A DNA stretch of 64,000 nucleotides from Ignavibacteriota bacterium (lineage in GTDB: Bacteria; Bacteroidota; Ignavibacteria; Ignavibacteriales; Melioribacteraceae): positions 372,001 to 436,000 of the forward strand of contig PAAX01000026.1 of the NCBI GenBank assembly GCA_002698995.1, in the 5' to 3' direction. Shown one piece after another: positions 4,829 through 31,394 of this stretch; the stretch's first letter is position 1; every line of letters starts with the position of its first letter. A program made the translations under genes and the position numbers. Under the pieces are notes generated by a model, which saw nothing but the letters and a program-made list of their open reading frames with translations, was not told the DNA's origin and did no database searches.

Positions 4829-4846
4829 TTTATTCTTTTCTTTTTA

Positions 4847-5977: not shown

Positions 5978-5978
5978 A

Positions 5979-7160: not shown

Positions 7161-7178
7161 ATTGAAATCCGAATCGAG

Positions 7179-7916
7179 TTAAGGTTTTATAAATTCTACT
7201 CTGAAATGACTATTGGTTAGAAAAGAAACTATTTTATTTCCGAAGATAATATTCCCAAGTTTTCCAAAATATTTTGGAGTATTCCATTTCAAACTAATTT
7301 TCTTAAATCCTGCCCTTTCAAATATCCTTATCCAGCGCTGTGGTGATTGATGAGTTTTCCAATCGATATTTTGAGCAATAGGATTCTTTAATCCAACCAT
7401 GGGAAATAGATTCTTGTTAGAACAATCGCAAATAATAAGTCTTCCATTATTGTTCATCAAATCATAAATCTTTTTTACCAATTCAAAATACGATTTGTTG
7501 GCTGCAATACTCTGTTCCATATTTCTGCACGCATTTTCATCCAAATGATTAATAGAATTATGCAATAGAACAATATCATATTTAATATCAGTTTGGTTAT
7601 AATCTTGAAATGTTTTTTTCAAAAGAAAGATATTATTGAGTTTCAGTTTTTGTTTAACTGCTTCAAATGTATTATTCATTCCTTTGCTTGATCCATTTAG
7701 TTCCGGTTCTAGACATGTTACTAAGTCAGCTCCTTTAACTGCTGCATATAAAGCATAAATTCCGGTGCCGCTTCCAATATCCAATACTTTCTTGTTCTTA
7801 AAAGTTATGTCCCCAAATAATCTGCAAAGCTTATTTTTTAGATGACTTTTCTTAGAGTATAATTTGTTTTCAATTATTACGTTATAATATTTTGACAGCG
7901 GCATAATTAATCCCAT
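7179..7916 (-). CDS. SAM-dependent methyltransferase
   Basis: A 245-residue class I methyltransferase. Motif I is VLDIGSGTGIYALYAA, which forms the SAM-binding loop; DIVLLHNSINHL is motif IV and GRLIICDCSN the post-motif strand. The start overlaps the stop of the upstream ATP-grasp gene by one base, so the two are probably made in equal amounts. O-methylation of a sugar, or of the group installed by the ATP-grasp ligase, is inference from this coupling. Confidence 0.82.
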   Translation of the reverse strand: MGLIMPLSKYYNVIIENKLYSKKSHLKNKLCRLFGDITFKNKKVLDIGSGTGIYALYAAVKGADLVTCLEPELNGSSKGMNNTFEAVKQKLKLNNIFLLKKTFQDYNQTDIKYDIVLLHNSINHLDENACRNMEQSIAANKSYFELVKKIYDLMNNNGRLIICDCSNKNLFPMVGLKNPIAQNIDWKTHQSPQRWIRIFERAGFKKISLKWNTPKYFGKLGNIIFGNKIVSFLTNSHFRVEFIKP

Positions 7917-8980: not shown

Positions 8981-9014
8981 AAAGTGATTCTATTGAATAT
9001 TTAGTTAGAAGGAT

Positions 9015-11572: not shown

Positions 11573-11577
11573 TCTGT

Positions 11578-14992: not shown

Positions 14993-15693
14993 TATTGTAC
15001 TTCCGCTAATTGTGAAAAATAATCATGTTGTGCTTTTTCATAATCTTCCGGCTTTCCTATATCCAGCCAGTATTCTTTCAATTCATATTTTGAGATCGGA
15101 ATCTGTTTTGCAAGAAGATCCCTAATCAAGTAATCCATCCCATAGTAAGTTTTATTAGGAATTAAGTGAAGAATTTCCGGCCGCATTATATAAATACCGG
15201 CTAGAGCATAAGTTATAATATCGGGCTTTTCAGTTATGTTGGTTACATAATCACCCGTGAAATAGATATTTCCAAAATCATAAGGAGTAATTATTTTCTT
15301 AATTGCTATTGTAAGAAGTGTCTGTTTTTTTACTGCATATTCATAAAACTTCTTAAAATTCATTAACGTAAGAATGTCACCATTCATAACTAAAAAGGGT
15401 TCATCAAATTCATCTGATAGTAATTTTAGTGGACCTGCAGTACCGAGCGGTTTTTCTTCTTTGCTTATGAAAAGTTGAATTCCATATTTATTTCCGTTTC
15501 CAAAAAAATTTTCTATGTATTCAGATTTATAATTAGTAGCAAGATATACTTCATCAAATCCATACGATTTTAGTCTTTCAATCTGTACTTCCAAAACAGC
15601 TTTTTTACCGACAGGCAATAGAGGTTTAGGTATAACTTCCGTAAATGGTTTTAGTCTGCTCCCCAATCCACCCGCTAAAATTACTGCTTTCAT
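14992..15693 (-). CDS. Sugar-phosphate nucleotidyltransferase
   Basis: A 233-residue GT-A-like nucleotidyltransferase. The signature LAGGLGSRLKPFTEVIPKP covers the nucleotide loop and the catalytic arginine/lysine; VMNGDILT is the metal-binding aspartate region, and EYWLDIGKPEDYEKA is the C-terminal signature. It activates a sugar-1-phosphate to NDP-sugar, the first step for the epimerase and aminotransferase that follow. The length is that of short RmlA/ManC-type single-domain forms. Confidence 0.9.
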   Translation of the reverse strand: MKAVILAGGLGSRLKPFTEVIPKPLLPVGKKAVLEVQIERLKSYGFDEVYLATNYKSEYIENFFGNGNKYGIQLFISKEEKPLGTAGPLKLLSDEFDEPFLVMNGDILTLMNFKKFYEYAVKKQTLLTIAIKKIITPYDFGNIYFTGDYVTNITEKPDIITYALAGIYIMRPEILHLIPNKTYYGMDYLIRDLLAKQIPISKYELKEYWLDIGKPEDYEKAQHDYFSQLAEVQ

Positions 15694-15731
15694 TTTTAAC
15701 CTCGTGATCTAATGTTTATAATAATTTATTT

Positions 15732-16943
15732 TTATACTGTTATTGATTTCTCTTTTAATATTTGACTGTAAAGCTGAAGGAGCTGCTCAACAACTTTATG
15801 CGGTGAGTATTTTTCCAAAGCAATCTGAAATGCATTTACAATAATTTTATTAACTTTTTTCTTATTAGTTAATAACTCTTCTACAGCATTTGTAAGTTTT
15901 TCTATATTTCCGCATTCAACTAGAATGCCGCTAACATTATTTTCTATCATTTCCGGTAGTCCATCTACATTATAAGAAATAACAGGTGTACCAATTGTCA
16001 TACTTTCTGCAACTGCTCTTGGACCGGTATCTACATAAGTAGGCAGTAGTAATATTTTTGATTTTTTTATTTCCATTAATACATCGGAATGTTCTTCAAC
16101 ATAACCGACGAATTCAATATTGTTTTCAAGTTCTTCTGATTTAATCAGTTCTTTGATATGCTTTAAGTATTCTTCGTTTCCGGTAAAACCAATTATCTTA
16201 CTTTTGATGTTTAATTTTGACTTCAATCTTTTGGTAACTTCAATAAAATCTTCTATTCCTTTTCTTTTTACTATCTCTGCAGCATAAATAATATCGCTTG
16301 TTTTTGTTATATCCAGATTAAACATATCAAAGGCATATTCTGGATTTGGATGATATATATTGTAAAACTTTGCCCTGGGATTGTGGTTTTTTATGAACTG
16401 CTCCATCTCACCGGGAAATGTTATAAAGTGTTTTTGATGTGAGATGATTTTATTTTCATTCTCAAGCCAGTATTTGTATTTAGAGCTTTCTTGATATTTA
16501 GTCACAAAGTTCATTAAGCCCTGCATCCAAACAACTGTTGGAATATCAAAATTATTTCCTAATACCTGCAGATTACCTTCAGTACCATGAATATTAATTA
16601 CATCGGGATTAATCTCTTCAATTATTTTAAGTACTTTCTTTTTCCAAAAGATATTTACAGAATGAATTTTCCTTTTTGAAATGCTTCCGAACTTTAGTGT
16701 CGGAATTACAAATGGTCTTTCTTTTATTAAGTGATAATGTATTCCATCTTCAATTATATAATAATCTTTTTCAAGATCACTGCTTAGTGTTAAGATATGA
16801 AGTTCAACATCTTTTATTTTGGATATTTCTTGAACCAAGTAATAAAGCCATGGAATTGGATGTTTACTTTTATTATCAATTTTAATTTTCAATTGATGCT
16901 GAAGATACTTCAATGAATAATTACAAAGCCATAGTACTTTCAT
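15732..16943 (-). CDS. GT4 family glycosyltransferase
   Basis: A 403-residue GT-B enzyme. The donor domain begins IIYAAEIVKRKGIEDFIE; the late motif is LLPTYVDTGPRAVAESMTIG, where the usual first acidic residue of EX7E is replaced (DTGPRAVAE), followed by TPVISYNVDGLPE. It overlaps the flippase stop-start by four bases and is followed by 38 bases before the nucleotidyltransferase. Repeat-unit assembly is inferred from context. Confidence 0.85.
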   Translation of the reverse strand: MKVLWLCNYSLKYLQHQLKIKIDNKSKHPIPWLYYLVQEISKIKDVELHILTLSSDLEKDYYIIEDGIHYHLIKERPFVIPTLKFGSISKRKIHSVNIFWKKKVLKIIEEINPDVINIHGTEGNLQVLGNNFDIPTVVWMQGLMNFVTKYQESSKYKYWLENENKIISHQKHFITFPGEMEQFIKNHNPRAKFYNIYHPNPEYAFDMFNLDITKTSDIIYAAEIVKRKGIEDFIEVTKRLKSKLNIKSKIIGFTGNEEYLKHIKELIKSEELENNIEFVGYVEEHSDVLMEIKKSKILLLPTYVDTGPRAVAESMTIGTPVISYNVDGLPEMIENNVSGILVECGNIEKLTNAVEELLTNKKKVNKIIVNAFQIALEKYSPHKVVEQLLQLYSQILKEKSITV

Positions 16944-18328
16944 TTTAACCAGATACCTTTTGCTTTATTAGTTATTATTTTTTTGTACTGAATAGGCCAG
17001 ATTATAAAAGCAATAAAATTAGCTATACATGTGGCCATAATTACTCCGGTTGATCCGTAATTCATATATTTAGCGAGAAAGATTGAAAGAGGAATGTTTA
17101 TAACTGCTTCACATACGCCAACTATTAACTGGAGAGTTATTACTCCAACACCATTGATAAAATTTACATAAGGAATTGTAAACATCATCAATATGGCATT
17201 TAATCCCATAAATAATGAAAGTGAAAAAGGGATATTGACAATTGATCCAATCCATAATTTATAGACATAATCTGCTAGAATTACCATAATGATTACTATA
17301 ACTGAAAGTGCAGCTGCCATCTTCCTTAAATTCTTGATTGACGATTTAATCCAATTAAAATCTTTTTTCTGATATGCATCTGTAAAACTTGACCAATACG
17401 GGGTTGTGACAATTGTAAATAACATCATAACTGCTGAAAAATATTTAAAAGATATTGTATAGGGTGTAACTTCTGTTGGACTTAATACTTGTGCAATAAT
17501 GATGTTATCGGATGAATATAATACCAATGCTGATATTTGGATTATAAAAAACTTTATCCCCAACGAGGTTAAATCTTTGGTATAATTAAAATTCACAAAA
17601 CTGAAAGAAGGTTTGTATCTCTTATAATTGTTATTGAAGAAATAGAATGTAAAAAATAGATAAACTACTATCGGAACAATTCCAAATACCAATCCAACGT
17701 AAATTAATGAGCCGTCTGAAATCAGACTTAATATTATAATTCCTATTAAGGTAAAAAGACTGGCAGTAAATTTAATAAAATCAAAATATGCCGGTCTCTG
17801 GTCTGCAATCGGAATTGTTCTAACAATTTGAAGTACAAATCCAATTGAGAACGAAGTAAATACAATAAACACCAAAGGATTGATAATATTATCGAAACTC
17901 TCAGGTGCATTAAATATAAATCTCCAATTTATATATGGGAACAGCAATAAAAAAATAGTATAAATAATTAATACAATTGAGATTACAAGAACATAAGTAA
18001 GAGAGACATATATTCTTCCTAAAGCATGATTATCATTTGAAATAGCTTCAGCAAGTTTATTTCTTAATCCATGTGATAATCCAATATCAAAAAAACTAAA
18101 TAAAACTATTACAGAACCAATAGTTGCCCAAATACCGTAAGCGGTTGGTTGAAGATAATTTAGTGTAATAGGCACCTGTATAAAACCGATCAGCATTGCA
18201 AAGCCGCGCCATAAAATTGAACCGGCAATATGCTTTTTAATTCTAACTGATCTGGCATTTCCTTTATTGAAATAATTATAAAGTATAATGCTGCTTTTTT
18301 TTAATGAAGTTAATACTTCTTCCATCAA
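16940..18328 (-). CDS. wzx: Wzx-type polysaccharide flippase
   Basis: A 462-residue integral membrane protein with about 12-14 hydrophobic helices and the MATE/PST layout (GSILWRGFAMLIGFIQVPIT near the N-terminus, FDIGLSHGLRNKLAEA after helix 2). Wzx turns the finished undecaprenyl-linked repeat unit from the cytoplasmic to the periplasmic side. Four-base overlaps with both neighbours place it in the operon core. No other flippase is visible here. Confidence 0.88.
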   Translation of the reverse strand: MMEEVLTSLKKSSIILYNYFNKGNARSVRIKKHIAGSILWRGFAMLIGFIQVPITLNYLQPTAYGIWATIGSVIVLFSFFDIGLSHGLRNKLAEAISNDNHALGRIYVSLTYVLVISIVLIIYTIFLLLFPYINWRFIFNAPESFDNIINPLVFIVFTSFSIGFVLQIVRTIPIADQRPAYFDFIKFTASLFTLIGIIILSLISDGSLIYVGLVFGIVPIVVYLFFTFYFFNNNYKRYKPSFSFVNFNYTKDLTSLGIKFFIIQISALVLYSSDNIIIAQVLSPTEVTPYTISFKYFSAVMMLFTIVTTPYWSSFTDAYQKKDFNWIKSSIKNLRKMAAALSVIVIIMVILADYVYKLWIGSIVNIPFSLSLFMGLNAILMMFTIPYVNFINGVGVITLQLIVGVCEAVINIPLSIFLAKYMNYGSTGVIMATCIANFIAFIIWPIQYKKIITNKAKGIWLK

Positions 18329-19362
18329 ACAGTCGCTTTTGCTTTTAAACTGCTCTCTATTGTTTCGTTTTGATTGTAGTAATACTTTTTAAACCAGTTG
18401 ATAAACTTTGGAAGTCCAATTTCTATAGGAGTTTGAGGATTATAACCTATAAAGGATTTAAGTTTTTCTATATCGGCATAAGTTTCATAAACATCACCGC
18501 TCTGCATAGGTAAAAAATTAATCCTAGCTTTTTTCTTTAATTCATGTTCAATAATATTGATAAAATATTTGAGCTCAACCGAAGTATTATTCCCGATATT
18601 AAATATTTCATACATAGGTCTGTCAAAATGATTTCCAGTGAATATTATTTTTTTTATGATCCCTTCAATTCCTTTTACAATATCACCAACGTAAGTAAAA
18701 TCTCTTTTCATAATTCCGTTGTTAAAAAGAGATATAGGTTTATCGTCAAGAATATTTTTTGTAAAAACAAAATAAGCCATATCCGGTCTTCCCCATTCGC
18801 CATAAACAGTGAAGAATCTCAAGCCAATTAAATTTATATGCGATTGAGAATGATAAGTGTAAGCAATTAACTCATTGGTTTTCTTTGATGCGGCATAAAT
18901 TGAAATCGGATTATCAACAGAATCGGTTTCACTGAAAGGAATTTTCTTATTATTTCCATAAACCGAACTTGAGGAAGCATAAAGTACATTTCTGATTTCA
19001 TGACTTTTAACTTCCTCCAGTATGTTCAAGAATCCTGTTATGTTATTATCAATATATGAGAAGGGATTCTGAATGGAATACCTTACTCCGGCTTGTGCTG
19101 CCAGATTAATAACCAAATCAAAATTATACTTGTTAAATAATGTCTTTAATTCACTTCTATTTTTTATATCAATTTTATGAAACTTGAAATTACGAAATGA
19201 ATGCAGAAGTGATAACCTGTCAACTTTCAATTGTATATCATAATAATTATTTAGATTATCTATTCCAACTATATCAAAGTATTTGCTGCCGGATAATTTC
19301 TTTGAAAGATGGAATCCGATAAAACCGGCACAACCGGTAACAAGTATTTTATACTTTTTCAT
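18325..19362 (-). CDS. UDP-glucuronate 4-epimerase-like NAD-dependent epimerase
   Basis: A 345-residue extended SDR. The NAD motif is GCAGFIGFHLSKKL, catalytic serines are in YASSSSVYG, and Y-x3-K is in IYAASKKTNELIAY. The RLSLL segment, LAAQAGVRYSIQNP and RFFTVYGEWGRPDMA strongly recall UDP-glucuronate 4-epimerases (CapI/GalE group). It would supply UDP-galacturonate or a related donor. Substrate assignment comes from sequence style, not testing. A poor second candidate is dTDP-glucose dehydratase. Confidence 0.85.
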   Translation of the reverse strand: MKKYKILVTGCAGFIGFHLSKKLSGSKYFDIVGIDNLNNYYDIQLKVDRLSLLHSFRNFKFHKIDIKNRSELKTLFNKYNFDLVINLAAQAGVRYSIQNPFSYIDNNITGFLNILEEVKSHEIRNVLYASSSSVYGNNKKIPFSETDSVDNPISIYAASKKTNELIAYTYHSQSHINLIGLRFFTVYGEWGRPDMAYFVFTKNILDDKPISLFNNGIMKRDFTYVGDIVKGIEGIIKKIIFTGNHFDRPMYEIFNIGNNTSVELKYFINIIEHELKKKARINFLPMQSGDVYETYADIEKLKSFIGYNPQTPIEIGLPKFINWFKKYYYNQNETIESSLKAKATV

Positions 19363-19391
19363 TTTTTGATTTGAATAAAATTGAAGATGTT

Positions 19392-21926
19392 TTATGCTTC
19401 TGCGGTAGTAATTGGTTTATTCTGCTTTAATCCGTTTCCGTTAGAAGGTATTGAATTTTCATCTGTATAATTGCATGAATAGCTTCCGGCATATCCATAC
19501 TTATATTTGAACGGGGAATTGTCAATATCGCAAGCATTAATGACAATACCATGAATTTTGATACCGGTCTGTTTCAATTCGTGAACACCCCACTTAAAGC
19601 TGTCTTTCATTGTATAATCATCTCTAACAATTAAGATTGCATCTTTAACATACTTGGCTATAATTAAAGGATCAACAACACGATTAACCGGAGGTGTATC
19701 AATTAGAATATAATCATACTGCAATGTTTCAATATTTTTGATAATCTTAGCAAATATTTCACTTTCCAATATTTCGCTGGAATTATCAAGTATTCCACCA
19801 GGTGGAATTAAATGTAAATCATATTTTGCAGCTCCATTATTTTTAGAAGGTTTTATTAAGCTGTAAATCATTGGATTTATCTTTTGTTCTTTTGCAGCAG
19901 TTATTATTCCGGGAGAATTTTTACTTACATTAAACATATTAGTAAGTCTTCCTCTTTTCAAATCACAGTCAATCATAAGTACTTTTTTATCTGATTGAAC
20001 AAGTAAGAGTGCTAGGTTAGCAACAACCGTAGTTTTACCCGAATTTTCTTCACAGCTTGTAAACATTAGTGTTTTGACTTTATTTTTTGAGTTGTAAATT
20101 TTAGTTCTTAGTATTCTGTATGTTTCTTTATAACCTTCGGCTGTATTCATCATTACAACAAATCTGTCTTCTATTTTCTTGGAATTATAAATTCTCTTTT
20201 TTAATTCCTTGCTATAATTAGGAATTATTGAGAAGATAGGAATTAGGTACTCATTCTCTAAATCATCTAAATGAAGTTTCTTTTTATTGTTTAGTTCAAC
20301 GGCAACTATTAGAAAAATACCGCAGACAAATCCGGCAAATATTCCAATTGATAAATTAAATTGTTTATTAGGAAAGACTGCAATCAGAGGAATTTGTGCC
20401 GGTTCAACGACTGCAATATCCTGAAGTTTTGATAGTTCTGCTAATTTCAGCTCTTCTCTTTTATCTATAAGAAGAGTATATACTTTTTCATAAACACTTT
20501 TCTCTCTTAATAATTCAGCGTATTTGTTTTCCTTTGCCGGTAAAGAAGAAAGCTGAGAATTATATTTAGAAACCAATCCCTCTAAATTATTCTGCTTTGC
20601 TTTTAATGTGTTAATAATAATTTGATAAGCAGTAATTGTATTTTGATTGAATGAAGATAACCGATTTTTTATCTCTGCAATTTGTTCATCAATTTTTACA
20701 ACTTCCGGATGCGATTCCAATTTTCTGTTTAAAGTTTCAATCCGCAGAACTTCAAGATCGGCAAGTTTAAGCATTAAAGATGAGAACGGTGTGTATGCCT
20801 CCGATGATCTTTCGGGAGTTAAATAAGTTTGATCAAAGTAACCTTTATCCTTATACTCATTTTCTATTGCACCTAATTTGTCTTGATATTGATTAAGCTC
20901 CAGATCAACATTTACTTTTTCAACTTCCAATTGACTAAGCAAATCTACAATTTGACTTGAATTTTCATTCATTGAAAGAAGCCGGTTTTTCGATTTGTAG
21001 TCTAAAAGTTCTTCCTCACTTTTCTTCAGGTTTTCAGATATTTCATCAATTTGATCATCAATAAACTTGTAAGAATATCGAATTGCCATTTTCTCTTGAT
21101 CAATTCTTGTTTCCTTAAATTTATCTGCAATTGTATTTGCAATCATTTGTGCTGACTTTGGATTGGTGCTTTCAACAGTAATTCTGAATATGTTAGTCTC
21201 ATCTTCCTGCTGAAGATCAATCATTGATTCTAGCATTTTAATTGCTGCTCTTCCGTTTAGGACAGTAAAATATAATTCCGAATTTGGAACTGCACTAGTC
21301 CAATCTATAATAAACTCAGAAGAAGAAGTATTGATTACGAACGAATTTTCCCGAGGTGATCTGCTGATTAATTTGTTCTTTTCAATATCATATAATTCGT
21401 AAGTATCATCGCTCAGTTTTTTAATTTTATAGCTGTTAGTTGAATTGCTTATAGATTTAAACTCTACAAACCTCGGATAGCTCATTCCATTTGGATTTGC
21501 TACTAAGTATTCATTTATGTAGTTGAGATAATAATCATCTATAATTAACTCTTTCTCGTTAGGTATTACAATCTTATCGAAAACTAAATTTAATTTCAGT
21601 TCATCAATAACTTTATTTAATACTTCGCTCGTTTTAACAAGCTTCATTTCTGTTTCAATCTTATCTGTATTTTTTGATTCTATTATTTGTTTGAATTCAT
21701 CTTGTCTGTATGTATTATCTACATTTTCTTTTTTCATCAAAACAGATGAAGAGTAAGTTTCGGGAACCAGGTAATTAAACATAAGAGCAGCCGAGATAAA
21801 AAAGAAAAGACTAAGTATTAGAATCCATTTTCTCTTCATAATTACATTCAGATATTCCAACAAAGATTTTTCTTTAGAATTAATTGAGAGATTCTGAAAT
21901 AAATTTAAGAAATCATCATTTTTCAT
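19392..21926 (-). CDS. wzc: Wzc-type chain-length determinant with tyrosine autokinase domain
   Basis: An 844-residue fusion of a Wzz co-polymerase and a BY-kinase. The first transmembrane helix is at ~34-52, a long periplasmic coiled-coil region spans ~270-500, and the second helix is at ~530-550 after a proline-rich VVEPAQIPLIAVFPN. The cytoplasmic kinase has Walker A SCEENSGKTTVVANLA, Walker A' VLMIDCDLKRG and Walker B YILIDTPPV. The C-terminus holds the tyrosine cluster FKYKYGYAGSYSCNY, the site of autophosphorylation in this family. It sets polymer length and works with Wzy and the export protein. Confidence 0.93.
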   Translation of the reverse strand: MKNDDFLNLFQNLSINSKEKSLLEYLNVIMKRKWILILSLFFFISAALMFNYLVPETYSSSVLMKKENVDNTYRQDEFKQIIESKNTDKIETEMKLVKTSEVLNKVIDELKLNLVFDKIVIPNEKELIIDDYYLNYINEYLVANPNGMSYPRFVEFKSISNSTNSYKIKKLSDDTYELYDIEKNKLISRSPRENSFVINTSSSEFIIDWTSAVPNSELYFTVLNGRAAIKMLESMIDLQQEDETNIFRITVESTNPKSAQMIANTIADKFKETRIDQEKMAIRYSYKFIDDQIDEISENLKKSEEELLDYKSKNRLLSMNENSSQIVDLLSQLEVEKVNVDLELNQYQDKLGAIENEYKDKGYFDQTYLTPERSSEAYTPFSSLMLKLADLEVLRIETLNRKLESHPEVVKIDEQIAEIKNRLSSFNQNTITAYQIIINTLKAKQNNLEGLVSKYNSQLSSLPAKENKYAELLREKSVYEKVYTLLIDKREELKLAELSKLQDIAVVEPAQIPLIAVFPNKQFNLSIGIFAGFVCGIFLIVAVELNNKKKLHLDDLENEYLIPIFSIIPNYSKELKKRIYNSKKIEDRFVVMMNTAEGYKETYRILRTKIYNSKNKVKTLMFTSCEENSGKTTVVANLALLLVQSDKKVLMIDCDLKRGRLTNMFNVSKNSPGIITAAKEQKINPMIYSLIKPSKNNGAAKYDLHLIPPGGILDNSSEILESEIFAKIIKNIETLQYDYILIDTPPVNRVVDPLIIAKYVKDAILIVRDDYTMKDSFKWGVHELKQTGIKIHGIVINACDIDNSPFKYKYGYAGSYSCNYTDENSIPSNGNGLKQNKPITTAEA

Positions 21927-21958
21927 TTTAATTTCCCCTTATTTGTTGGCATTTTGAT

Positions 21959-22567
21959 TTAATTACTTACTACAATTGTTACAACTGCCGCAATAACAGC
22001 TGCAAATGCCGACAAAATAACTGATGTATTTCTAGCTCCTCCAAACCATATTTGCGTAACGTATATTTTATCGCCCGGCAATATTTTTATATCATTTTCT
22101 GTTGCACCATCTTCCAATATTTCTTCCATATCAATAGTTATCTCAGAGTTGTTTCTTGTTACTATAACTTCGCTTAAATCTGAATCCTGTGTTTGACCAC
22201 CTGCAATCCCAATTACATCGGTAATTGTTTCAATTCCTGTTATATAGTAAGTACCAGGATTTCTTACTTCACCAAGTACATTTACTCTGAATAGCGGTTC
22301 AATTGAAAGTTCAGGAGTACGATAAATTGAATTATACTTCTCAGTAATTTCATTTTTTAATACTTCATAAGGTTTTGAGTGATTATCAATCGGATCTAAA
22401 AAAGGAAGCTTTAAAGTATTGTTCTCGAGTACGTAATACTCACCCGATACACTCTCGGGAATATTGAATATTGTAATTCTTATTCCGTCAAGAGGTTTTA
22501 ATTGCTGCGCATAACTGCTGCAAAACAGAATTAGAATGCAGTACAATATAATCGCCCGTTTTTTCAT
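21959..22567 (-). CDS. Wza-like polysaccharide export protein (short form)
   Basis: A 202-residue protein with an N-terminal signal peptide (hydrophobic core to about residue 20, FCSSYAQ), a Poly_export domain (ITIFNIPESVSGEYYV to LPFLDPI) and one SLBB-like domain (NVLGEVRNPGTYYITG to GDKIYVTQIW). It is about half the length of E. coli Wza and ends in a hydrophobic helix (VILSAFAAVIAAVVTIVVSN). Wza-type proteins form the export channel next to Wzc. The lack of further SLBB repeats and the hydrophobic tail suggest a periplasmic adaptor or inner-membrane-anchored form. No clear lipobox is seen. Confidence 0.82.
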   Translation of the reverse strand: MKKRAIILYCILILFCSSYAQQLKPLDGIRITIFNIPESVSGEYYVLENNTLKLPFLDPIDNHSKPYEVLKNEITEKYNSIYRTPELSIEPLFRVNVLGEVRNPGTYYITGIETITDVIGIAGGQTQDSDLSEVIVTRNNSEITIDMEEILEDGATENDIKILPGDKIYVTQIWFGGARNTSVILSAFAAVIAAVVTIVVSN

Positions 22568-22607
22568 TGCTTACCTCTAAAATATTGTTATTATTTTGGC
22601 AGGATTT

Positions 22608-23102
22608 TTATAAGGAAAATTCTACTACTTTCGTTTTAATTTTTTTAACCACTTTTGCCGGAACTCCCATAGCAACTGCGTTTGAAGGTATATCCTTGGT
22701 AACTACTGCACCGGCTCCGACTATAGCATTTTCACCGATTGTCACTCCGCACAAAATAGTGCTGGATGAACCAATGCTTGCCCCTTTTTTTACGTAGGTT
22801 TCAGTTACATGCCAGTCCGCTTCAGTCTGTAATTCGCCATTTTCATTTGTAGCTCTTGGATACTTGTCATTTATAAAGGTAACATTGTGGCCAACAAAAA
22901 CATTGTCCTCTATATGAACTCCTTCACAAATGAATGTGTGGGAAGATATTTTGCAATTCTTACCGATAAAAGCATTTTTCTGAATTTCAACAAATGTTCC
23001 AATTTTAGTGTTATCATCAATTGAACAGCCGTACAAATTAACAAAGTCGTAAATCTTAACATTCTCACCAATTTTAACATTATTGATATTTTGCTTATCC
23101 AC
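22608..23102 (-). CDS. WlbB/WbpD-like sugar N-acyltransferase
   Basis: A 164-residue left-handed beta-helix acyltransferase. Hexapeptide repeats run almost from the start ([17 protein letters not shown], then [16 protein letters not shown]) to the tail ([13 protein letters not shown]). The segment [17 protein letters not shown] matches the N-acetyltransferases that act on 3-amino-3-deoxy-UDP-GlcNAc-uronate. The gene directly follows a Gfo/Idh/MocA oxidoreductase by 20 bases, the usual partner. It would acetylate the new amino group using acetyl-CoA. Confidence 0.85.
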
Positions 23103-23122
23103 GTTATCACCTTATTGATTAT

Positions 23123-24214
23123 TTATACAAAAGATTTTTTTCTTCTGTTATTTTTGAATTCTACTTTATCTTTTTTAATCATTTCCGGATTTGTTTTATG
23201 ATTGAAACCATTATCTATCTTTACCGTTAACCCATTATTTTTAATCGAATGTTCAGCAGCTTCAAGAATTTGGACTATTTTTAATCCATCTCTTCCGTTA
23301 GTTAACGGTTCTCTCTTTTCTATTATTGATTGAAGAAATTCTTTTGCCGCAAGAGATAATGCTTCGGTCTGCATAACCTTTGGAGAATACATATCACCGG
23401 TTCTATATTGAACAAGCATTTTATGTATACATTCTTTTGATTTGATTTCAACACCGCAGTCATATACCTTTATCTTTTCCGAATTTTCCATATCGTCAAA
23501 CACAAGCATTTTTTTATCACCGGCAACAATCATCTTTCTTATTTTAATTGGAGAAGTCCAATTAACATGAAAATGCGCAAAGCAATTATCTTCTTTAAAG
23601 TTTAGTGATAATTGTGCAATATTCTCATGCTCATTAAAGTTTGAAACCCCGCAGGCTGTGAGTGAAGAAACAGTTTTATCCGGAATTAAATAATACATTA
23701 TAGATAGATCATGCGGAGTTAAATCCCAAATAACATTTACATCATGCTGAAAAAGACCAAGATTTATTCTAACCGAATCGAAGTAAATTATATTGCCAAG
23801 TTCACCGTTCGAAATAATTTCTTTCATTTTTCTAACTGCACCGGTATATAAAAAAGTATGATCTACAAATAATCTAAGATCATTTTCTTCAGCAATTTTT
23901 ATTAGTTCTTCGGCATGATTTGATTTGGCAGTGAACGGTTTTTCAACCCAAATATGTTTTCCGGAAAGCAAAGCCTCCTTTGCTATTTGATAATGAGAAC
24001 CAACAGGTGTTGCTACTACTACTGCATCAATATTCTTATCAAGCAGTTTTTTGTAATCAAGTTCAGTAGTGATGTTGGGGAACTTTGATTTGATATACTC
24101 TAGTCTCTCTTCATCAAAATCGCAGACTGTTATACTTGCAACTTCTTTTATAGAGTGAAAATTTCTAATCAGGTTTGGTCCCCAATATCCGGCTCCTATA
24201 ATTCCAATTTTCAT
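23123..24214 (-). CDS. Gfo/Idh/MocA oxidoreductase (WlbA-like)
   Basis: A 363-residue NAD(P)-dependent oxidoreductase. The cofactor motif is GIIGAGYWGPNLIRNFHS, and EKPF in HIWVEKPFTAKSNHAEEL is the family signature. The substrate half includes WDLTPHDLSIMYYL. Enzymes of this subgroup oxidise C3 of UDP-N-acetylglucosaminuronate. With the aminotransferase at 25686 and the acyltransferase at 22608 it would give a 2,3-diacetamido uronic acid. The UDP-sugar 6-dehydrogenase needed before it is not in the window. Confidence 0.87.
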   Translation of the reverse strand: MKIGIIGAGYWGPNLIRNFHSIKEVASITVCDFDEERLEYIKSKFPNITTELDYKKLLDKNIDAVVVATPVGSHYQIAKEALLSGKHIWVEKPFTAKSNHAEELIKIAEENDLRLFVDHTFLYTGAVRKMKEIISNGELGNIIYFDSVRINLGLFQHDVNVIWDLTPHDLSIMYYLIPDKTVSSLTACGVSNFNEHENIAQLSLNFKEDNCFAHFHVNWTSPIKIRKMIVAGDKKMLVFDDMENSEKIKVYDCGVEIKSKECIHKMLVQYRTGDMYSPKVMQTEALSLAAKEFLQSIIEKREPLTNGRDGLKIVQILEAAEHSIKNNGLTVKIDNGFNHKTNPEMIKKDKVEFKNNRRKKSFV

Positions 24215-24228
24215 AATAACCTCAAGAT

Positions 24229-25671
24229 TTATTTCCCTTTTGCAAAAATCATTGCTGGTAAAGTTTTGATTATGTATTCAATGTCGTTAATCGGTGACAT
24301 AACATATGTGTAATAAATATCCATAATTGTAGAATCGAGAAATGATACTTTATTTCTTCCGAAAATCTGCCAAAACCCGGTACAACCAGGAAGAACCTGC
24401 AGTCTTCTTTTCTGCCATGATTTATAATTCTCATATTCATAAGGAAGACATGGACGCGGACCAACTAAACTCATATCCCCTTTAATTACATTAAACAGCT
24501 GCGGCAGTTCATCAATAGAAGTTTTTCTTATAAACTTACCAACTTTAGTTATTCTATTTTCATTTATAACTTTGAATTCATCATTCCCTTCTTGATTTGT
24601 TTTGATGAATTTTATCATATCATTTTTTCTTTTGACATCATCAGACTCATCAATAGTCATAGAGCGGAATTTATAAAACTTGAATGTTTTACCGCACATA
24701 CCAACTCTTTCCTGTGCATAAATTGCCGGACCTTTTGAAGTTAATCTTATTATTAAAAATGTGATGAGGTAGAGCGGAGAAAGAATTATGATTCCAATTG
24801 AAGCAAAAAACAAATCAAATATTCTTTTATAGAGGAGAAATCTTTTTAATTTCTTTGAGGGTTTTGAGGAATGAATACTTAAAAGCGGAACTTCGTAATA
24901 GGTTTCAGGAGAGATTTTTTCATTAATAATCTCAAATTTTTCGGATGCTAATCTTATGCAAATATCAAGATCATCCAGTTCATCAAGTTTTTCCAAAATT
25001 GTAGAGTAATCGTTATCTTCAAATGAAATAATAATCTCATCAATTTTTTTTGATCTTACTATTTCATTTAATTTCGAAATGCTCCCCAAATAATTTATAC
25101 CGGAAATGAATTCATTCTTCTCATTATTCTTATCAAACAAAATTCCAATTATGTTGATTGGTAATGAATTATTAATTAAATACTCGGCTGAAATTATCTT
25201 TGAGAAATTTCCGGTTCCAACCAAAAGAATATTATTCCTTAATAACTTTCTTGAAAGCAATCGGTATAAATTTGTGAATAGATAAATTCTTAATAAAAGA
25301 AGAGAAATACTAAGCAGCGCAAGATTCAGTACACAGTCAATTAGATTTTTGTCAATAAAAATATTTAGTAAGAAAAGAACAAATAAAGTAACAAATAAAA
25401 GTTTGATTAAAGCTGCTGCCAGTTTTTGTAAATGTAATTTTCTGTTTAGAATTACATTTATCTTATAAAGATCCGAATTTCTGAAAACAAATAAAATTAG
25501 TGACGAATATAGAATTAATTTGAATAACAATTCAATTAAATTATGAAGTTGATCCAAGGCACTTAATCCGCTATTGTTGAGCACGGAATAATTTGCAATT
25601 ATAATACCGATTGATATTATCATCATATCAAAGAATAAAAAAGCTATTTTATAGCGCGGTATATTCAGCAT
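24229..25671 (-). CDS. Polyprenyl-phosphate phosphoglycosyltransferase (WbaP/WcaJ-type)
   Basis: A 480-residue initiating enzyme. Four hydrophobic helices fill the first ~140 residues, a Rossmann-like domain follows (NILLVGTGNFSKIISAE), and the C-terminal catalytic domain begins KRIFDLFFASIGIIILSP. Diagnostic motifs are FKFYKFRSM, SIDELPQLFNVIKGDMSLVG and PRPCLPYEYENY. It transfers a sugar-1-phosphate from a UDP-sugar to undecaprenyl phosphate, starting each repeat unit. Fourteen-base gaps on both sides show operon membership. Confidence 0.92.
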   Translation of the reverse strand: MLNIPRYKIAFLFFDMMIISIGIIIANYSVLNNSGLSALDQLHNLIELLFKLILYSSLILFVFRNSDLYKINVILNRKLHLQKLAAALIKLLFVTLFVLFLLNIFIDKNLIDCVLNLALLSISLLLLRIYLFTNLYRLLSRKLLRNNILLVGTGNFSKIISAEYLINNSLPINIIGILFDKNNEKNEFISGINYLGSISKLNEIVRSKKIDEIIISFEDNDYSTILEKLDELDDLDICIRLASEKFEIINEKISPETYYEVPLLSIHSSKPSKKLKRFLLYKRIFDLFFASIGIIILSPLYLITFLIIRLTSKGPAIYAQERVGMCGKTFKFYKFRSMTIDESDDVKRKNDMIKFIKTNQEGNDEFKVINENRITKVGKFIRKTSIDELPQLFNVIKGDMSLVGPRPCLPYEYENYKSWQKRRLQVLPGCTGFWQIFGRNKVSFLDSTIMDIYYTYVMSPINDIEYIIKTLPAMIFAKGK

Positions 25672-25685
25672 AACAACTCTTAATT

Positions 25686-26870
25686 TTATTTAGGAATTTT
25701 TTGAAAGATTAATTCTTCAATTTCCTTTTCGGAAGAACTTTTGAAACGGTTACCATTTGTGAAGAATACTTTTATTTTAAGACAGACATAATCAACTTGA
25801 GAAATTGTCATTTCAGGATAGATTGGAAGGGACAAGCAATTATCAGCCAGACTTTCAGTTACAGGAAAATCTCCTTTTTTATGTCCCATATAAGAAAAGC
25901 AATTCTGTAAATGAATAGGAACCGGGTAATGCATTCCGGTTGAGATTCCTTCATCTAGTAAATACTGAGATAATTTTCTTCTTGTGTTGTCGTTTTCTCT
26001 AACTTGAATAACATATAAATGATAGACATGTTTTGCATAATTCATTTCTTTTGGAAGAATAATATCATCAATACCGGAAAGGAGTTCATTGTATCTTTCT
26101 GCAATTTCTCTTCTTTTCTTTGTCCACTCTTCAATGTATTTCATTTTAACATTAAGAACAGCTCCTTGAAATCCTTCCATTCTATAATTGTGACCATAAA
26201 CATCATGGTAATATTTTTGGCTTTGTCCTTGATCTCGCATCATTCTAAATTTAACAGCGATGTTATCATCATTTGTTACTACTGCACCGGCTTCACCATA
26301 TGCACCAAGATTTTTTCCGGGATAAAAACTAAAAGAAGCTGCCTCGGAAAGACTTCCGACTTTTGCTCCTTTAAATTCTGCTAAATGTGCTTGTGCAGCA
26401 TCCTCAACAAGATGTATTTTATATTTTTTTGCAATCCTTAATAGTTCATCCATATTTGCCGGCTGCCCGTACAAATGAACTGCAACTATAGCTTTGGTTC
26501 TAGGTGTTATAGCTTTTTCAACTTCAACCGGATCAATGTTGTAACTATCTTTCTCACAATCAACAAATACCGGCTGGGCACCGCAAAGTGTAACTCCCCA
26601 TGCCGTTGCAATAAAAGTATTTGCCGGAATAATAACTTCATCTTCCGGGCCAATTCCCAATGCCCACAGAGCCATATGATTTCCCGCAGTTCCCGAAGAA
26701 ACTCCCAAGCAATGCTTTACATTATGTTTCTCTGCAAATTTAATTTGAAATTCCTTAACCGAATCTCCTAACACAAATTGTGAATTATTAAGAACATCTT
26801 GAATAGCCTTATTAATCTCAAAGCTTATGTTTTCATATTGGGTTTTTAAATCTAGAAATGGAACCTTCAT
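25686..26870 (-). CDS. DegT/DnrJ/EryC1 aminotransferase (WlbC/WbpE-like), first gene of the exopolysaccharide operon
   Basis: A 394-residue PLP-dependent sugar aminotransferase. Key parts are GVSSGTAGNHMALWALG, the VEDAAQAHLAEF strand and the PLP lysine in SFYPGKNLGAYGEAGAV. In combination with the Gfo/Idh/MocA and hexapeptide genes just downstream it matches the 3-aminotransferase step to 2,3-diamino uronic acids. It is the first gene after a 376-base gap that holds a sigma-54 promoter, so it leads the transcript. About 140 bases separate the predicted start of transcription from the ATG. Confidence 0.88.
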   Translation of the reverse strand: MKVPFLDLKTQYENISFEINKAIQDVLNNSQFVLGDSVKEFQIKFAEKHNVKHCLGVSSGTAGNHMALWALGIGPEDEVIIPANTFIATAWGVTLCGAQPVFVDCEKDSYNIDPVEVEKAITPRTKAIVAVHLYGQPANMDELLRIAKKYKIHLVEDAAQAHLAEFKGAKVGSLSEAASFSFYPGKNLGAYGEAGAVVTNDDNIAVKFRMMRDQGQSQKYYHDVYGHNYRMEGFQGAVLNVKMKYIEEWTKKRREIAERYNELLSGIDDIILPKEMNYAKHVYHLYVIQVRENDNTRRKLSQYLLDEGISTGMHYPVPIHLQNCFSYMGHKKGDFPVTESLADNCLSLPIYPEMTISQVDYVCLKIKVFFTNGNRFKSSSEKEIEELIFQKIPK

Positions 26871-27010
26871 GTTAATCTCGTTTTTATTTTTGAATGGAGT
26901 TAATTGTTAATTTTAAAATGAAGCTCCGCTTATGTAAGTCACATTTGCTTACTCTTATGAATTATTATTTTAGGATTGCAACATATTTTCAGAACATTGA
27001 ATACTTTTGA

Positions 27011-27026
27011 CGCAATAAGAATGCCA
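27011..27026 (-). promoter_or_regulatory. Sigma-54 promoter P2 of the exopolysaccharide operon
   Basis: Read on the minus strand this is TGGCATTCTTATTGCG. It carries the -24 GG and -12 GC elements at the correct 12-base offset and matches TGGCAC-N5-TTGCW at nearly all fixed positions. It points into the operon starting at 26870. A sigma-54 activator gene lies about 900 bases upstream. The rest of the 26871-27246 gap is AT-rich and shows no gene. Confidence 0.8.
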
Positions 27027-27086
27027 TTAAAAGAGATGTATATTTATTATGTTTTATGAACAAATGATTGCTGGAAGGAAAAATCA

Positions 27087-27101
27087 GTAAAAGTATTTTA
27101 C
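27087..27101. promoter_or_regulatory. Putative activator-binding palindrome upstream of P2
   Basis: GTAAAA-GTA-TTTTAC is a perfect inverted repeat about 70 bases upstream of the P2 -24 box, the normal place for an enhancer of an NtrC-type activator. The same arms occur upstream of P1 (27880-27894). A weaker GTAAAA half-site lies at 27149. Confidence 0.6.
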
Positions 27102-27246
27102 CTTTTATTAAAGATTTTTTACTGAATTAATAAATAAAGCTTTGAACCGTAAAATTTTTATCATTGGCTGAAATTGAGGTTGTGCTGGTCTTATATATAA
27201 TTGAAAATTGGTTTGTAAGTATTTACTGGGTCTATAATCAAAATTA

Positions 27247-27750
27247 TTATTTAGGAAAACTGTTTTGATTATGAAATGAATTACTTGATGGTTTCTTTGG
27301 AATAAATTCGTTACCGATTTTTTCCAAATCCAATATTATAACTTCGGAGTTCTCAAAATTAATTGTCCCTTTTATGTATTTACTTTTTAACTGAGGTTCT
27401 AAAATTTCCTCGGTATCTTTATAATAAGTATCATGAATAACAATATGGTGAATTTGATCTACTAAAAAGTAAAACTTCAATCCATCTGCATCATAAAGGA
27501 GTAATCTTGTTTTTTCGGAAAGTGATTCTTGGTTAAGGATAAGCAGTTTTGAAATGTTTATTAAATGATAAAGGTAGTCATCAACAATAATTTTACTTAC
27601 AAGCGATTTGTTGTAAGTCTCGGGAAGCTCAACATATTTCATTTTCAGAATGTTATTAATCTTTGCAATGTCGGTGCAAAATTTCCTTTTTGAAATTTCA
27701 TAGATTATTAATCCTTGAGCGTTCTTTATTTCATTTTCATTTTCTAGCAT
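27247..27750 (-). CDS. CheW-like domain protein
   Basis: A 167-residue protein whose order of hydrophobic strands fits a single CheW-like domain: GLIIYEISKRKFCTDIAKI at the start, LINISKLLIL, then TRLLLYDADGLKFYFLVDQI and a late GTINFENSEVIILDLEKI. CheW domains couple sensory proteins to kinases. The last ~20 residues are a polar tail. It stands alone between the regulator and the exopolysaccharide operon, with a sigma-54 promoter in front. It may link surface sensing to polymer output, which is inference. The fold call is from pattern only. Confidence 0.65.
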   Translation of the reverse strand: MLENENEIKNAQGLIIYEISKRKFCTDIAKINNILKMKYVELPETYNKSLVSKIIVDDYLYHLINISKLLILNQESLSEKTRLLLYDADGLKFYFLVDQIHHIVIHDTYYKDTEEILEPQLKSKYIKGTINFENSEVIILDLEKIGNEFIPKKPSSNSFHNQNSFPK

Positions 27751-27783
27751 TAGAACATTGTATTTTTGGTGACCGTTATCAAA

Positions 27784-27799
27784 GGCAATAAAAATGCCA
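27784..27799 (-). promoter_or_regulatory. Sigma-54 promoter P1 of the CheW-like gene
   Basis: On the minus strand the sequence is TGGCATTTTTATTGCC, with GG and GC elements spaced as in sigma-54 promoters. It shares TGGCATT-N2-TATTGC with P2. The predicted transcript would begin around 27774, some 24 bases before the ATG at 27750. Confidence 0.78.
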
Positions 27800-27860: not shown

Positions 27861-27895
27861 GTAAAGTAATTTTATAGCTGTAAAATATTTTTACA
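27861..27895. promoter_or_regulatory. Putative tandem activator sites upstream of P1
   Basis: TGTAAAA-TAT-TTTTACA at 27879-27895 is a perfect 17-base palindrome containing the same arms as the site upstream of P2. A second, looser copy (GTAAAG-TAA-TTTTAT) is at 27861-27875, centred 19 bases away, about two helical turns. Both lie 70-100 bases upstream of P1. Confidence 0.6.
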
Positions 27896-27916: not shown

Positions 27917-29275
27917 CTAATCGGCTATGTTTGAAACTCTTTCAATTTTATATTCCTTTATTTTTGAATTTAGTGTTGGTTTTGAAATACCTAAAATTTC
28001 CAAAGCTTTTTTCTTTTCCCAATTAACTTTTTCCAAAACTCTTTTTATATGTACAGCCTCAATTTGTGCCAGACTCAAATTAACATCATTACCCGAAATT
28101 ATATGACTGTTACTATGCAGCAAAATGTGTTCCTTTTCTACAACATTACCATTTGCAAGCACTACGGCTTGTAAAAGTGTGTTTTCTAATTCTCTTACAT
28201 TACCAACCCAGTTATAATTTTGTAAAAGCTCCATTGCTTCATAAGTTATCTTTCTTACATTTTTATGTAAATCACGATTTATTTTTTTTAAGAAGTGCAC
28301 AACCAAATCGGGTATATCTTCTTTTCTTTCTCTTAAAGGAGGGACTTCAATAGTAAATACCTTTAATCTGTAAAAAAGATCTTCTCTAAATTGTCCCGAT
28401 TCTACAAGCTCAGCAAGGTTTTTATTTGTAGCAGCAATTATTCTTGCTTTCATCGGAATTGTAGATTCACCTCCTACTCTTTCAAATTCTTTTTCTTGAA
28501 GAACTCTTAAAAGTTTAGCCTGTAATTTTGTTGATATTTCAGAAATCTCATCAAGAAAAACAGTACCTTCTTCAGCTAATTCAAATTTTCCTTTTTTATC
28601 CCTTATTGCTCCGGTAAATGCCCCTTTCACATGTCCGAATAATTCACTTTCCAAAAGTGATTCAGTTAGTGCAGTACAGTTTACCGCAACCAAAGGCTGG
28701 TTTTTTGTAACACCTGTATGATGAATTACTTTTGTGATTAATTCTTTCCCGGTTCCACTTTCACCTTGAATTAATACATTTACTTTACTGTTTGATATTT
28801 TTCCTATCTTTTTAAATATCTGTTTTATAGCAGGAGTTTTACCAACTATACTATCCCCAAGTTTAATATCTTTAGTATCTTCAAAAATTGAGATTGCCAT
28901 TCTTTCACTTAGTTTTTTACTTTCCAAAGCACGTTTTATGGTATGTCCAAAAAGTTCAATCTCCAGCGGTTTTTCGATATAATCATAAGCTCCCATTTGC
29001 ATTGCTTTTATTATAGATTGCATGTCTTCGAATGCGGTTATTAAAAGGACTTGAATGGAAGGATCAATCTCGCGGGCTTTTTGAAGAACATCAATTCCGG
29101 TCATATCAGGCATTCTTAAATCGGTAATTATTAAATCGGGAGTTGTTTCGGAAATAATTTTAATTCCCTCGGTACCTGTACCGGCAAGCAATACTTTATA
29201 CTTTAAATCGGTCAAATACATGTAAATAAATTCACGTGTATATTCATCATCATCAATTATAAGAATTGTGTCCAT
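27917..29275 (-). CDS. NtrC-family sigma-54-dependent response regulator
   Basis: A 452-residue regulator in three parts. The receiver (1-120) has the acidic pocket DDD at 8-10 and phospho-acceptor D52 in IITDLRMPDMTG. The AAA+ domain (~140-370) has Walker A GESGTGKEL, the sigma-54 contact GAFTGA in HVKGAFTGAIRDK, and Walker B TVFLDEISEIS. The C-terminal Fis-type helix-turn-helix ends ALEILGISKPTLNSKIKEY. It overlaps the histidine kinase by 23 bases, so they are a two-component pair. The nearby sigma-54 promoters and shared palindromes are likely its targets. Confidence 0.95.
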   Translation of the reverse strand: MDTILIIDDDEYTREFIYMYLTDLKYKVLLAGTGTEGIKIISETTPDLIITDLRMPDMTGIDVLQKAREIDPSIQVLLITAFEDMQSIIKAMQMGAYDYIEKPLEIELFGHTIKRALESKKLSERMAISIFEDTKDIKLGDSIVGKTPAIKQIFKKIGKISNSKVNVLIQGESGTGKELITKVIHHTGVTKNQPLVAVNCTALTESLLESELFGHVKGAFTGAIRDKKGKFELAEEGTVFLDEISEISTKLQAKLLRVLQEKEFERVGGESTIPMKARIIAATNKNLAELVESGQFREDLFYRLKVFTIEVPPLRERKEDIPDLVVHFLKKINRDLHKNVRKITYEAMELLQNYNWVGNVRELENTLLQAVVLANGNVVEKEHILLHSNSHIISGNDVNLSLAQIEAVHIKRVLEKVNWEKKKALEILGISKPTLNSKIKEYKIERVSNIAD

Positions 29276-31394
29276 AGTTTACTCCGTTCAATGGGAAAAT
29301 AATTTCAAAAATAGTATTGCCCGGTTCACTGCTTAATAATTGAATATTTGCCTTATGCAGCTCCAAATATTTTCTTACCAGAGGAAGTCCTAATCCGGTG
29401 CCGCAAGATTTTGTTGTAACAAAAGGTTCAAAAATTTCTGCAGGTAATTTAATTCCAATTCCCGTATCCCTTACTTTTATTGATGTAAAATTTTCAGTAA
29501 GATTAATATCGGCTGTAATTTCAATCATACCATTTTGCTTTGAAGCTTCAATAGAATTTTCTATTAAATGAAGAAACACACACTGCAGTTTTTCAAAATC
29601 TGCCATTAAATTAACATCAGCATTTACATGATTATTTAATATTATTTCTTTTTCATCAAGAAGATTTATGAAGCTTGTTTTTAATGATTCTATCATAGAA
29701 TACAAATTGATAGATTTGATATTAACACTTCCGCATTTTGAAAATTCTAACGTATCTTTTACCAAGTGCTCAAGTCTTTCTATCTGCTGCTTGAGTAAAT
29801 TTGTGTATGAAAATCCTCCATTATTAATTGGTGTATTTTTATTTAAGTAACTTATTGTCATCTTAATGGGATTAATGTAAGATTTAATTTCGTGAGTTAA
29901 GAATGAAGTTAATTTTCCAAGTGAAGCAAGTTTTTCAAGATTTACCAGATTCTGCTCGGCTTTAACTTTTGCGGTATTGTCTCTAAAAATTGCCAATGTT
30001 AAGTAATCATTTTCTTCCCATTTTATTATTGAAAAAGTAATTTTTAGAAATACTTTTTTCTGTGATTTTAGTTTAACTTCTTTTTGAAAAGGAATTCGCT
30101 GAATAGAAGAATTAGAAAAACCGGAATTATGAATTGTACTATCAATAAAATTATTTAGATCAGTTTTTTCATCATAAATACAATCGAAATTTTTTCCCAT
30201 AAGTTCATGCATCTGCATATCAACAAGTTTACAGAATGCATCGTTAACGGCAATTATATTTCCTTTTGAATCGGTTAAACGCATTGCATCAAAAGAGTTA
30301 TGCCAGATTGTATTAAATCGCATTTCTGCAAGCATGTGAAGTTTTTCATATCGGTGCTGCTGAAGATAATCCTCTAGATTTACAGCAATCATTTCAATGA
30401 AATTAGATAATTCCGCTTTTAATGAATCATCATTTTTCTCAGGTGAATCATCACTGAAAGAGAAGATAATTTTACCGGCACTTAATCCGTTCAGGAATAT
30501 TTTTTTCTTGATATAGTTAGATGTTAGCTCAAAGTTATCAGTTTGAAATACTTTTGATTCAATTTCCAAATAGACTTGTGCTAACTGCTGAAAGGAGGAT
30601 ATCTGAATTAAAACATTAAAAATGCTTTGATAAATTTCATCATCAGATAAATCAAATCGATTTAAGAGCTGATTAATTTTATAAAGTGAATTCAGCAGTT
30701 TATTTTCATAATCCAATTGTTTTGTTTTATTCGTTAATTCTTCTTCGCGGTTTTTAATTTGAATAGCCAGACCGATACTTTCACATAAGTCTTCAAAGTA
30801 ATTTATAACCTCTTCAGTATAAATATTTTTTCGTTTATCGTTCATTTGAAGAAGTCCAATTGTATCTTCGTTTACTCTAATTGGAATTAAAGCAATAGAT
30901 TCATAACCGGCACGGTTGCATTCATTCCTAAATTTGCTGACCTGCTCTTTGGAAAACTGCATTAATAATCTTGTAGAAGAATTAGTCCAGAAACTGCCAC
31001 GGCTGGTAATAAATTTTTCACTTCTGCTGATTTTATTCTGTAAAACCATTCCGCACATACAGCTTAAATTAATATGATCGCAAAGGCCACTATTATCAAA
31101 TAAATCTTCTTCAGACTTTTCAAGAAGTGAACTTTCTCTTTTAACAAAATATTTTGGGAAGCCAACTGAATAGAAATAAGGGTAATCTTCTTCTTTTTTT
31201 AATCTAATTGCAATTGCATTAATTTTGGTATGATCCTTAATAAGATTTACAATATCACTTATTAGTTTTTCGAAGTTCTTTGAAACATTAATTGCGTGAA
31301 GAATTTTTGAGATCAGTTCCTGCTTATTTAATTCAATAACATTTACTAAATCTACGGGTACATCAGCAATCGTCTCTTTCTTAATTTTATTCAT
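29253..31394 (-). CDS. GAF-PAS sensor histidine kinase
   Basis: A 713-residue kinase without obvious transmembrane helices, so probably cytoplasmic. The first ~215 residues are GAF-like (ESIALIPIRVNEDTIGLLQM is the typical late strand). A PAS domain lies at ~365-470 (RLTDSKGNIIAVNDAFCKLV). The dimerisation domain carries the phospho-histidine H501 in LTHEIKSYINP. The ATPase domain has ENSIEASKQNG (N box), VRDTGIGIKL (G1) and GTGLGLPLVRKY (G2). It overlaps the NtrC-type regulator gene. Architecture recalls the PrsK/PrsR-type kinases tied to exopolysaccharide loci; that link is inference. Confidence 0.92.
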   Translation of the reverse strand: MNKIKKETIADVPVDLVNVIELNKQELISKILHAINVSKNFEKLISDIVNLIKDHTKINAIAIRLKKEEDYPYFYSVGFPKYFVKRESSLLEKSEEDLFDNSGLCDHINLSCMCGMVLQNKISRSEKFITSRGSFWTNSSTRLLMQFSKEQVSKFRNECNRAGYESIALIPIRVNEDTIGLLQMNDKRKNIYTEEVINYFEDLCESIGLAIQIKNREEELTNKTKQLDYENKLLNSLYKINQLLNRFDLSDDEIYQSIFNVLIQISSFQQLAQVYLEIESKVFQTDNFELTSNYIKKKIFLNGLSAGKIIFSFSDDSPEKNDDSLKAELSNFIEMIAVNLEDYLQQHRYEKLHMLAEMRFNTIWHNSFDAMRLTDSKGNIIAVNDAFCKLVDMQMHELMGKNFDCIYDEKTDLNNFIDSTIHNSGFSNSSIQRIPFQKEVKLKSQKKVFLKITFSIIKWEENDYLTLAIFRDNTAKVKAEQNLVNLEKLASLGKLTSFLTHEIKSYINPIKMTISYLNKNTPINNGGFSYTNLLKQQIERLEHLVKDTLEFSKCGSVNIKSINLYSMIESLKTSFINLLDEKEIILNNHVNADVNLMADFEKLQCVFLHLIENSIEASKQNGMIEITADINLTENFTSIKVRDTGIGIKLPAEIFEPFVTTKSCGTGLGLPLVRKYLELHKANIQLLSSEPGNTIFEIIFPLNGVNYGHNSYN

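Follow-up and report, generated by a model that had tools for sequence, protein, structure and literature searches.

A predicted sigma-54 switch with a CheW-fold protein ahead of an exopolysaccharide operon of an Ignavibacteriota bacterium, and its cassette among relatives

In the window (the whole stretch of DNA analyzed, 64,000 nucleotides) a gene for an NtrC-type activator is followed by a CheW-like gene and an exopolysaccharide operon, each behind a similar promoter word. This raises the question of whether one two-component system switches the operon, and what part a relative of a chemotaxis protein would play in such a switch. A preliminary description of this DNA had answered the first part with yes, which is still a prediction. 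On the minus strand the gene order is nuo genes, kinase, NtrC, P1, CheW-like gene, P2 and exopolysaccharide operon, and the main features are:

29253..31394, minus strand: histidine kinase, 713 aa, PAS-HisKA-HATPase (Pfam PAS_9, HisKA and HATPase_c above cut-off)
27917..29275, minus strand: NtrC-family response regulator, 452 aa (Pfam Response_reg, Sigma54_activat and HTH_8; GAFTGA intact in alignment)
27784..27799, minus strand: P1, -24/-12 promoter read from the sequence, TGGCATTTTTATTGCC, upstream of the CheW-fold gene
27247..27750, minus strand: CheW-fold protein, 167 aa, without NLRG (PF01584, 41.7 bits, cut-off 23.5)
27011..27026, minus strand: P2, -24/-12 promoter read from the sequence, TGGCATTCTTATTGCG, upstream of the exopolysaccharide operon
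1052..26870, minus strand: exopolysaccharide operon, 22 ORFs with gaps of at most 40 bases, running on past the window start

These elements probably form a sigma-54 switch of kinase, NtrC and CheW that governs cell-surface operons. In the proposed switch, the soluble histidine kinase would phosphorylate the adjoining NtrC-type regulator, which would bind the dyad pairs lying some 70 bp upstream of each promoter and activate sigma-54 polymerase at P1 and P2 alike. P1 would give the CheW-fold protein and P2 the exopolysaccharide operon, and since both would be activated by NtrC, the two products would be made together. The CheW-fold protein would serve this regulator branch as a dedicated accessory outside the chemotaxis array, most likely binding the kinase or the regulator and so tuning the response (feedback), or else acting on the product machinery. 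This regulator-CheW cassette recurs in relatives, ahead of exopolysaccharide, curli or PKS operons; at the exopolysaccharide loci, a NusG paralogue is probably brought to the long operon through a leader element. The genes, promoter words, dyads, spacing and conserved gene order are direct observations on the sequence.

Both promoter words lie at the positions and on the strand given in the preliminary description, and exact matches to the 15-base pattern TGGCATTNNTATTGC were found at P1 and P2 only within the window. The spacing from GG to GC is 10 bases in each, in TGGCA-like and TTGC-like words, which fits -24/-12 promoters as had been claimed. The genome scan that was suggested at the same time also agreed: TGGCAYNNNNATTGC, which is related to TGGCATTNNTATTGC, occurred six times in the 4.23-Mb genome and not at all as a reversed control, with P1 and P2 making up two of the six sites (same strand, 773 bp apart), while TGGCRN6TTGCW gave 23 genomic matches against 3 for its control. 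Mismatch-tolerant words did not exceed chance in the window, neither the word of the preliminary description with up to three mismatches (31 found, 29.5 expected) nor TGGCRN6TTGCW with up to one (12 found, 10 expected). For this reason the hexamers by themselves are moderate evidence for sigma-54 promoters. Sigma-54, on whose presence the prediction depends, is encoded in the genome (PF04552, 200.5 bits).

The targets behind the promoters were likewise as described, P1 fronting a gene that matches PF01584 and P2 an exopolysaccharide operon of at least 22 ORFs, as a further ORF crosses the window start. The operon encodes a DegT aminotransferase, a sugar-phosphate transferase, Wza-like, Wzc-like, Wzx-like and Wzy-like proteins and glycosyltransferases, with Pfam support from Polysacc_synt, Wzy_C, Poly_export and Wzz/AAA_31. 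The set of a Wzx/Wzy operon is present, i.e. Wzx, Wzy, Wza, Wzc and an initiating transferase (TIGR03025, 347.7 bits, cut-off 295.55). The promoters and the exopolysaccharide target of the predicted switch appear well supported.

The neighbouring activator, described earlier as NtrC-type with an intact GAFTGA, has a receiver, an AAA+ domain and a Fis-type HTH by Pfam, and the GAFTGA is seen in the alignment. It scored below the cut-off of the equivalog for nitrogen NtrC (TIGR01818, 415.2 bits, cut-off 558.6). In the kinase no membrane segment was evident (highest 19-residue hydropathy 1.07) and a GAF_2 match stayed under its Pfam cut-off. No full-length relative of the kinase was found in the family, the next best match reaching 167 bits against 1561, and the kinase was therefore set aside as a probe for related loci. 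A Cys cluster, LCDHINLSCMCG, lies in its N-terminal half, and its N-terminal part recurs in other large kinases, those of G003 and G034, at 40% over about 200 residues. The kinase is possibly a redox or metal sensor.

Comparison of P1 and P2 with six relatives revealed paired inverted repeats, GTWAA-N5-TTWAC, placed 19-21 bp apart upstream of the promoter words:

27880..27894, minus strand: upstream dyad 1 of P1, GTAAAAATATTTTAC, no mismatch to GTWAA-N5-TTWAC
27861..27875, minus strand: upstream dyad 2 of P1, ATAAAATTACTTTAC, one mismatch, centre 70 bp from the -24 GG
27108..27122, minus strand: upstream dyad 1 of P2, GTAAAAAATCTTTAA, one mismatch
27087..27101, minus strand: upstream dyad 2 of P2, GTAAAATACTTTTAC, no mismatch, centre 69 bp from the -24 GG

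No other dyad pair in the window came within two mismatches of the consensus; the P1 pair is centred 70 bp, and the P2 pair 69 bp, upstream of its promoter. Simulated 64-kb windows from two second-order Markov models gave no pair at up to one mismatch (40 windows per model), and a mean of 0.07 or 0 pairs at up to two (15 per model). A dyad pair with up to three mismatches was absent from all 26 other distinct -24/-12-like sites of the genome that were tested. The consensus was derived jointly from the window and the six relatives, and their fit of 7/7 is not independent; outside that set, 6 of 19 CheW-linked loci had a pair at up to three mismatches, giving 13/26 overall and 2/10 for exopolysaccharide loci. 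Across 14 promoters with good pairs, the distance from dyads to promoter clustered around 60, 70 and 79 bp (Rayleigh p about 0.0008 at 10.5 bp, and about 0.015 once close relatives were collapsed), as helical phasing would predict. Because the dyad pairs are common to P1 and P2 at a like distance, one activator plausibly serves both.

That activator could be another enhancer-binding protein, with the neighbouring NtrC controlling something else. More NtrC-family genes do exist in the genome, among them a 59% identical paralogue on contig C35, but at 13 of the 26 loci such dyad pairs lie ahead of CheW next to an NtrC of this branch, where the branch is shared and the place is not, and this alternative is considered very unlikely. 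The earlier claim that two like sigma-54 promoters are served by the neighbouring NtrC gains support from the shared dyad pairs and from the NtrC-CheW-exopolysaccharide order in relatives.

The conservation of this order was surveyed across the 164 genomes of the order, in which 82 NtrC relatives were listed at E 1e-130 or better; all 82 were examined, and the window was counted among the loci. A CheW-like gene, scored when it started within 1.2 kb downstream of NtrC, directly followed 26 of the 82. With locus classes resting on BLAST to window genes and a few relatives, the genes after the cassette were exopolysaccharide genes in 10 loci (including the window), PKS genes in 6, curli csgE/F/G in 4 and unclassified in 6. 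Two of the neighbourhood tables covered unlabelled ORFs from 120 or 100 aa upward. Among the 56 relatives lacking a CheW-like gene, 34 stood ahead of OEP-HlyD-RND efflux genes and 22 were unclassified, some of these being contig ends. None of the 34 efflux-linked NtrC loci had a CheW-like gene. Pfam confirmed CheW in all six PKS-linked loci and Csg proteins in the four curli loci. It also identified PKS domains (G040, G036) and, in G018, an AMP-ligase/carrier start. In the curli loci (L158, L159, L161 and L164) the cassette lies immediately ahead of csgE/csgF/csgG, the part of the L164 contig that was examined ending in the csgE/csgF region.

In an NtrC tree built by a quick method, all 26 CheW-linked regulators fell within one clade of 30 rows (SH-aLRT 99). 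Four members of the clade had no CheW downstream; in L284 the contig stops 608 bases past NtrC, and in L263 a CheW-like gene lies on the other side of NtrC. A profile search found a CheW-like gene in G002. When 80 of the 591 NtrC loci of named genomes were searched with the CheW profile, there was one match, 5 kb from NtrC and on the opposite strand. Among the hits listed from named genomes, the nearest came from a Bacteroidetes MAG (53%) and an Ignavibacteriae MAG (47%), which probably indicates the group of the source genome.

A P1-like site scoring at least 11 of 13 was present between NtrC and CheW in 22 of the 26 loci, and in 21 of 26 the best promoter word was matched by no more than two of 100 base shuffles. 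Scores below 11 were obtained at four loci, three of them exopolysaccharide loci. Neither promoter word nor dyad pair was clear in L166, L289, L290 and L294, which belong to one genus. P1 is widely kept among relatives, and the dyad word is kept much less. P2 with dyads was found in one of 12 loci tested, the window itself, and was missing from the other 11 (at L162 the gap ahead of a Wza-like gene was used for the search); P2 looks specific to the source genome.

This distribution bears on an alternative in which NtrC acts on P1 only, the operon being transcribed mainly by read-through or from an ordinary promoter, with P2 minor. It would account for the absence of P2 with dyads from those 11 loci; moreover, no terminator-like site was found between the CheW gene and the operon, and sigma-70-like words do occur in the region, in about the number expected by chance (11 found, 7.8 expected). 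Against this, the P2 word equals that of P1, and its dyad pair is equally good and equally well placed. A P1-only action of NtrC is regarded as unlikely, and activation at both promoters is preferred.

There remains the role of the CheW-like protein in the switch. An AlphaFold2 model predicted a CheW fold with confidence (pLDDT 85.7), its best PDB match was CheW 2qdl, and the 18 PDB matches at E of 0.001 or below were all CheW, CheA or chemotaxis core-unit chains. Canonical CheW is coupled to receptor and CheA through its NLRG motif. This motif was present in 8/8 canonical CheW proteins and in 0/18 NtrC-linked CheW-like proteins, the alignment having taken in 18 of the 26 and left out 8. Among 22 cassette genomes, a CheA match was detected in 13, including the source genome, and was absent in 9, of which 7 are at least 95% complete; some genomes have a second CheA-like match outside this CheA survey. 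Since NLRG is missing in 18/18 and CheA was undetected in 9 of 22 cassette genomes, a place of this protein in a chemotaxis array seems unlikely.

The array could nevertheless be involved if the CheW-like protein coupled exopolysaccharide control to the chemosensory array of this genome in a Dif-like manner, with the NtrC pair as a separate input. The source genome has one CheA match and four CheW-domain matches, i.e. three besides the gene studied here, and Dif signalling governs exopolysaccharide in Myxococcus (PMC12802240). However, the motif is lacking throughout the alignment, the cassette is retained in the nine genomes that have no CheA match, and the gene adjoins NtrC and not CheA or receptors, making a link to the array quite unlikely. 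The best reading is that the CheW-fold protein would work with the two-component system, or with what that system produces, rather than as an array scaffold. That it has left the array and is now a dedicated third component of a sigma-54 two-component branch governing operons of the cell surface (exopolysaccharide, curli, PKS lipids), expressed from the very promoter that is switched and acting back on the kinase or NtrC, is proposed tentatively, at slightly less than even confidence.

The CheW-fold protein alone was rejected as an orthologue probe, its other family matches being 20-31% identical and mostly ordinary CheW. Seven of these matches had their wider surroundings examined (L169-L175), and none lay beside an NtrC relative of this branch.

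Several known systems resemble parts of this locus. In the part of PMC9850573 consulted, the PrsK-PrsR/RpoN system of PEP-CTERM floc-formers (Aquincola, Zoogloea) has a kinase and an NtrC-type regulator beside exopolysaccharide genes and a sigma-54 promoter with an upstream enhancer, all of which it shares with the arrangement described here. RpoN1 there drives a PEP-CTERM gene and, according to the same portion of the paper, seems not to drive the exopolysaccharide genes. Unlike the present locus, no CheW beside the regulator is reported for PrsK-PrsR in that portion. The window's proteins stayed below the cut-offs of the PEP-CTERM PrsK/PrsR models TIGR02915 and TIGR02916 (395.6 vs 502.6 and 82.3 vs 300).

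Dif of Myxococcus xanthus has its own CheA-type kinase and acts post-translationally through EpsW (PMC12802240, in part). Both systems tie chemotaxis-type signalling to exopolysaccharide synthesis, but in the window the gene comes after one for an NtrC regulator, and it is transcription that would be affected. With canonical CheW the protein shares PF01584 and the predicted fold, and differs in the missing NLRG and in some carriers having no CheA. According to PMC3521004, curli systems in Bacteroidetes mostly occur without csgD, and the section consulted does not mention CheW.

No description of an NtrC-CheW cassette was found in the open-licence papers searched. Sigma-54 regulators are familiar, and so are exopolysaccharide and curli operons. 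If true, the tie of a CheW-fold protein to a branch of NtrC regulators, seen even where the genome has no CheA match, would put a chemotaxis component to a new use. It would also offer a single, testable switch controlling extracellular matrix in an order that has received little study. A regulator and a small CheW-like protein ahead of slime, curli-fibre or lipid genes point to an unstudied control of the bacterial surface.

The predicted 5' leader of P2 contains one more element:

26923..26942, minus strand: ops-like leader element, GTGACTTACATAAGCGGAGC

On the sense strand, no further than 9 kb from NtrC, 8 of the 10 exopolysaccharide loci carry the pattern GTGA-N5-12-GCGRAGC; as it was drawn from four loci, the independent count is 4 of the 6 others. 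It was found in none of the 34 efflux, 6 PKS or 4 curli loci and in 3 of 28 unclassified loci, including one with a Wzc match. L290 carries a variant, and the window has one further match, at 60167. A DNA hairpin was considered for this element and is unsupported by folding: of four sequences folded as short DNA, none was clearly above shuffles.

Besides the NusG-domain gene in the ribosomal-protein cluster, the genome has a second one (L177, G000:C19:223360), which is a candidate UpxY/RfaH-type antiterminator. RfaH/ops and UpxY are known analogues of the leader element (PMC7593976, in part): there as here, the leader of a long operon for surface polysaccharide carries a short element, and the genome encodes a NusG paralogue. 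They differ in the word, the DNA hairpins here are no better than shuffles, and the link between paralogue and element is putative. The ops-like leader element hints at a second layer of control.

The C35 NtrC paralogue has its own kinase and stands ahead of an OEP-HlyD-RND operon behind TGGCACTCTCTTTGC (L124, G000:C35:2000-18500), and loci near-identical to it occur in G032 and G013. On the same contig, L006 (G000:C35:86567) has a -24/-12 word accompanied by a weaker dyad pair (TTTAA-N5-TTAAA-like, 58 bp), preceding Met-rich and metal-transporter-like genes as read from their translations; this site is perhaps a target of the C35 paralogue. At L001 (G000:C7:93597), a -24/-12 word lies just ahead of a short response-regulator-like ORF, which is followed by a cytochrome-like gene.
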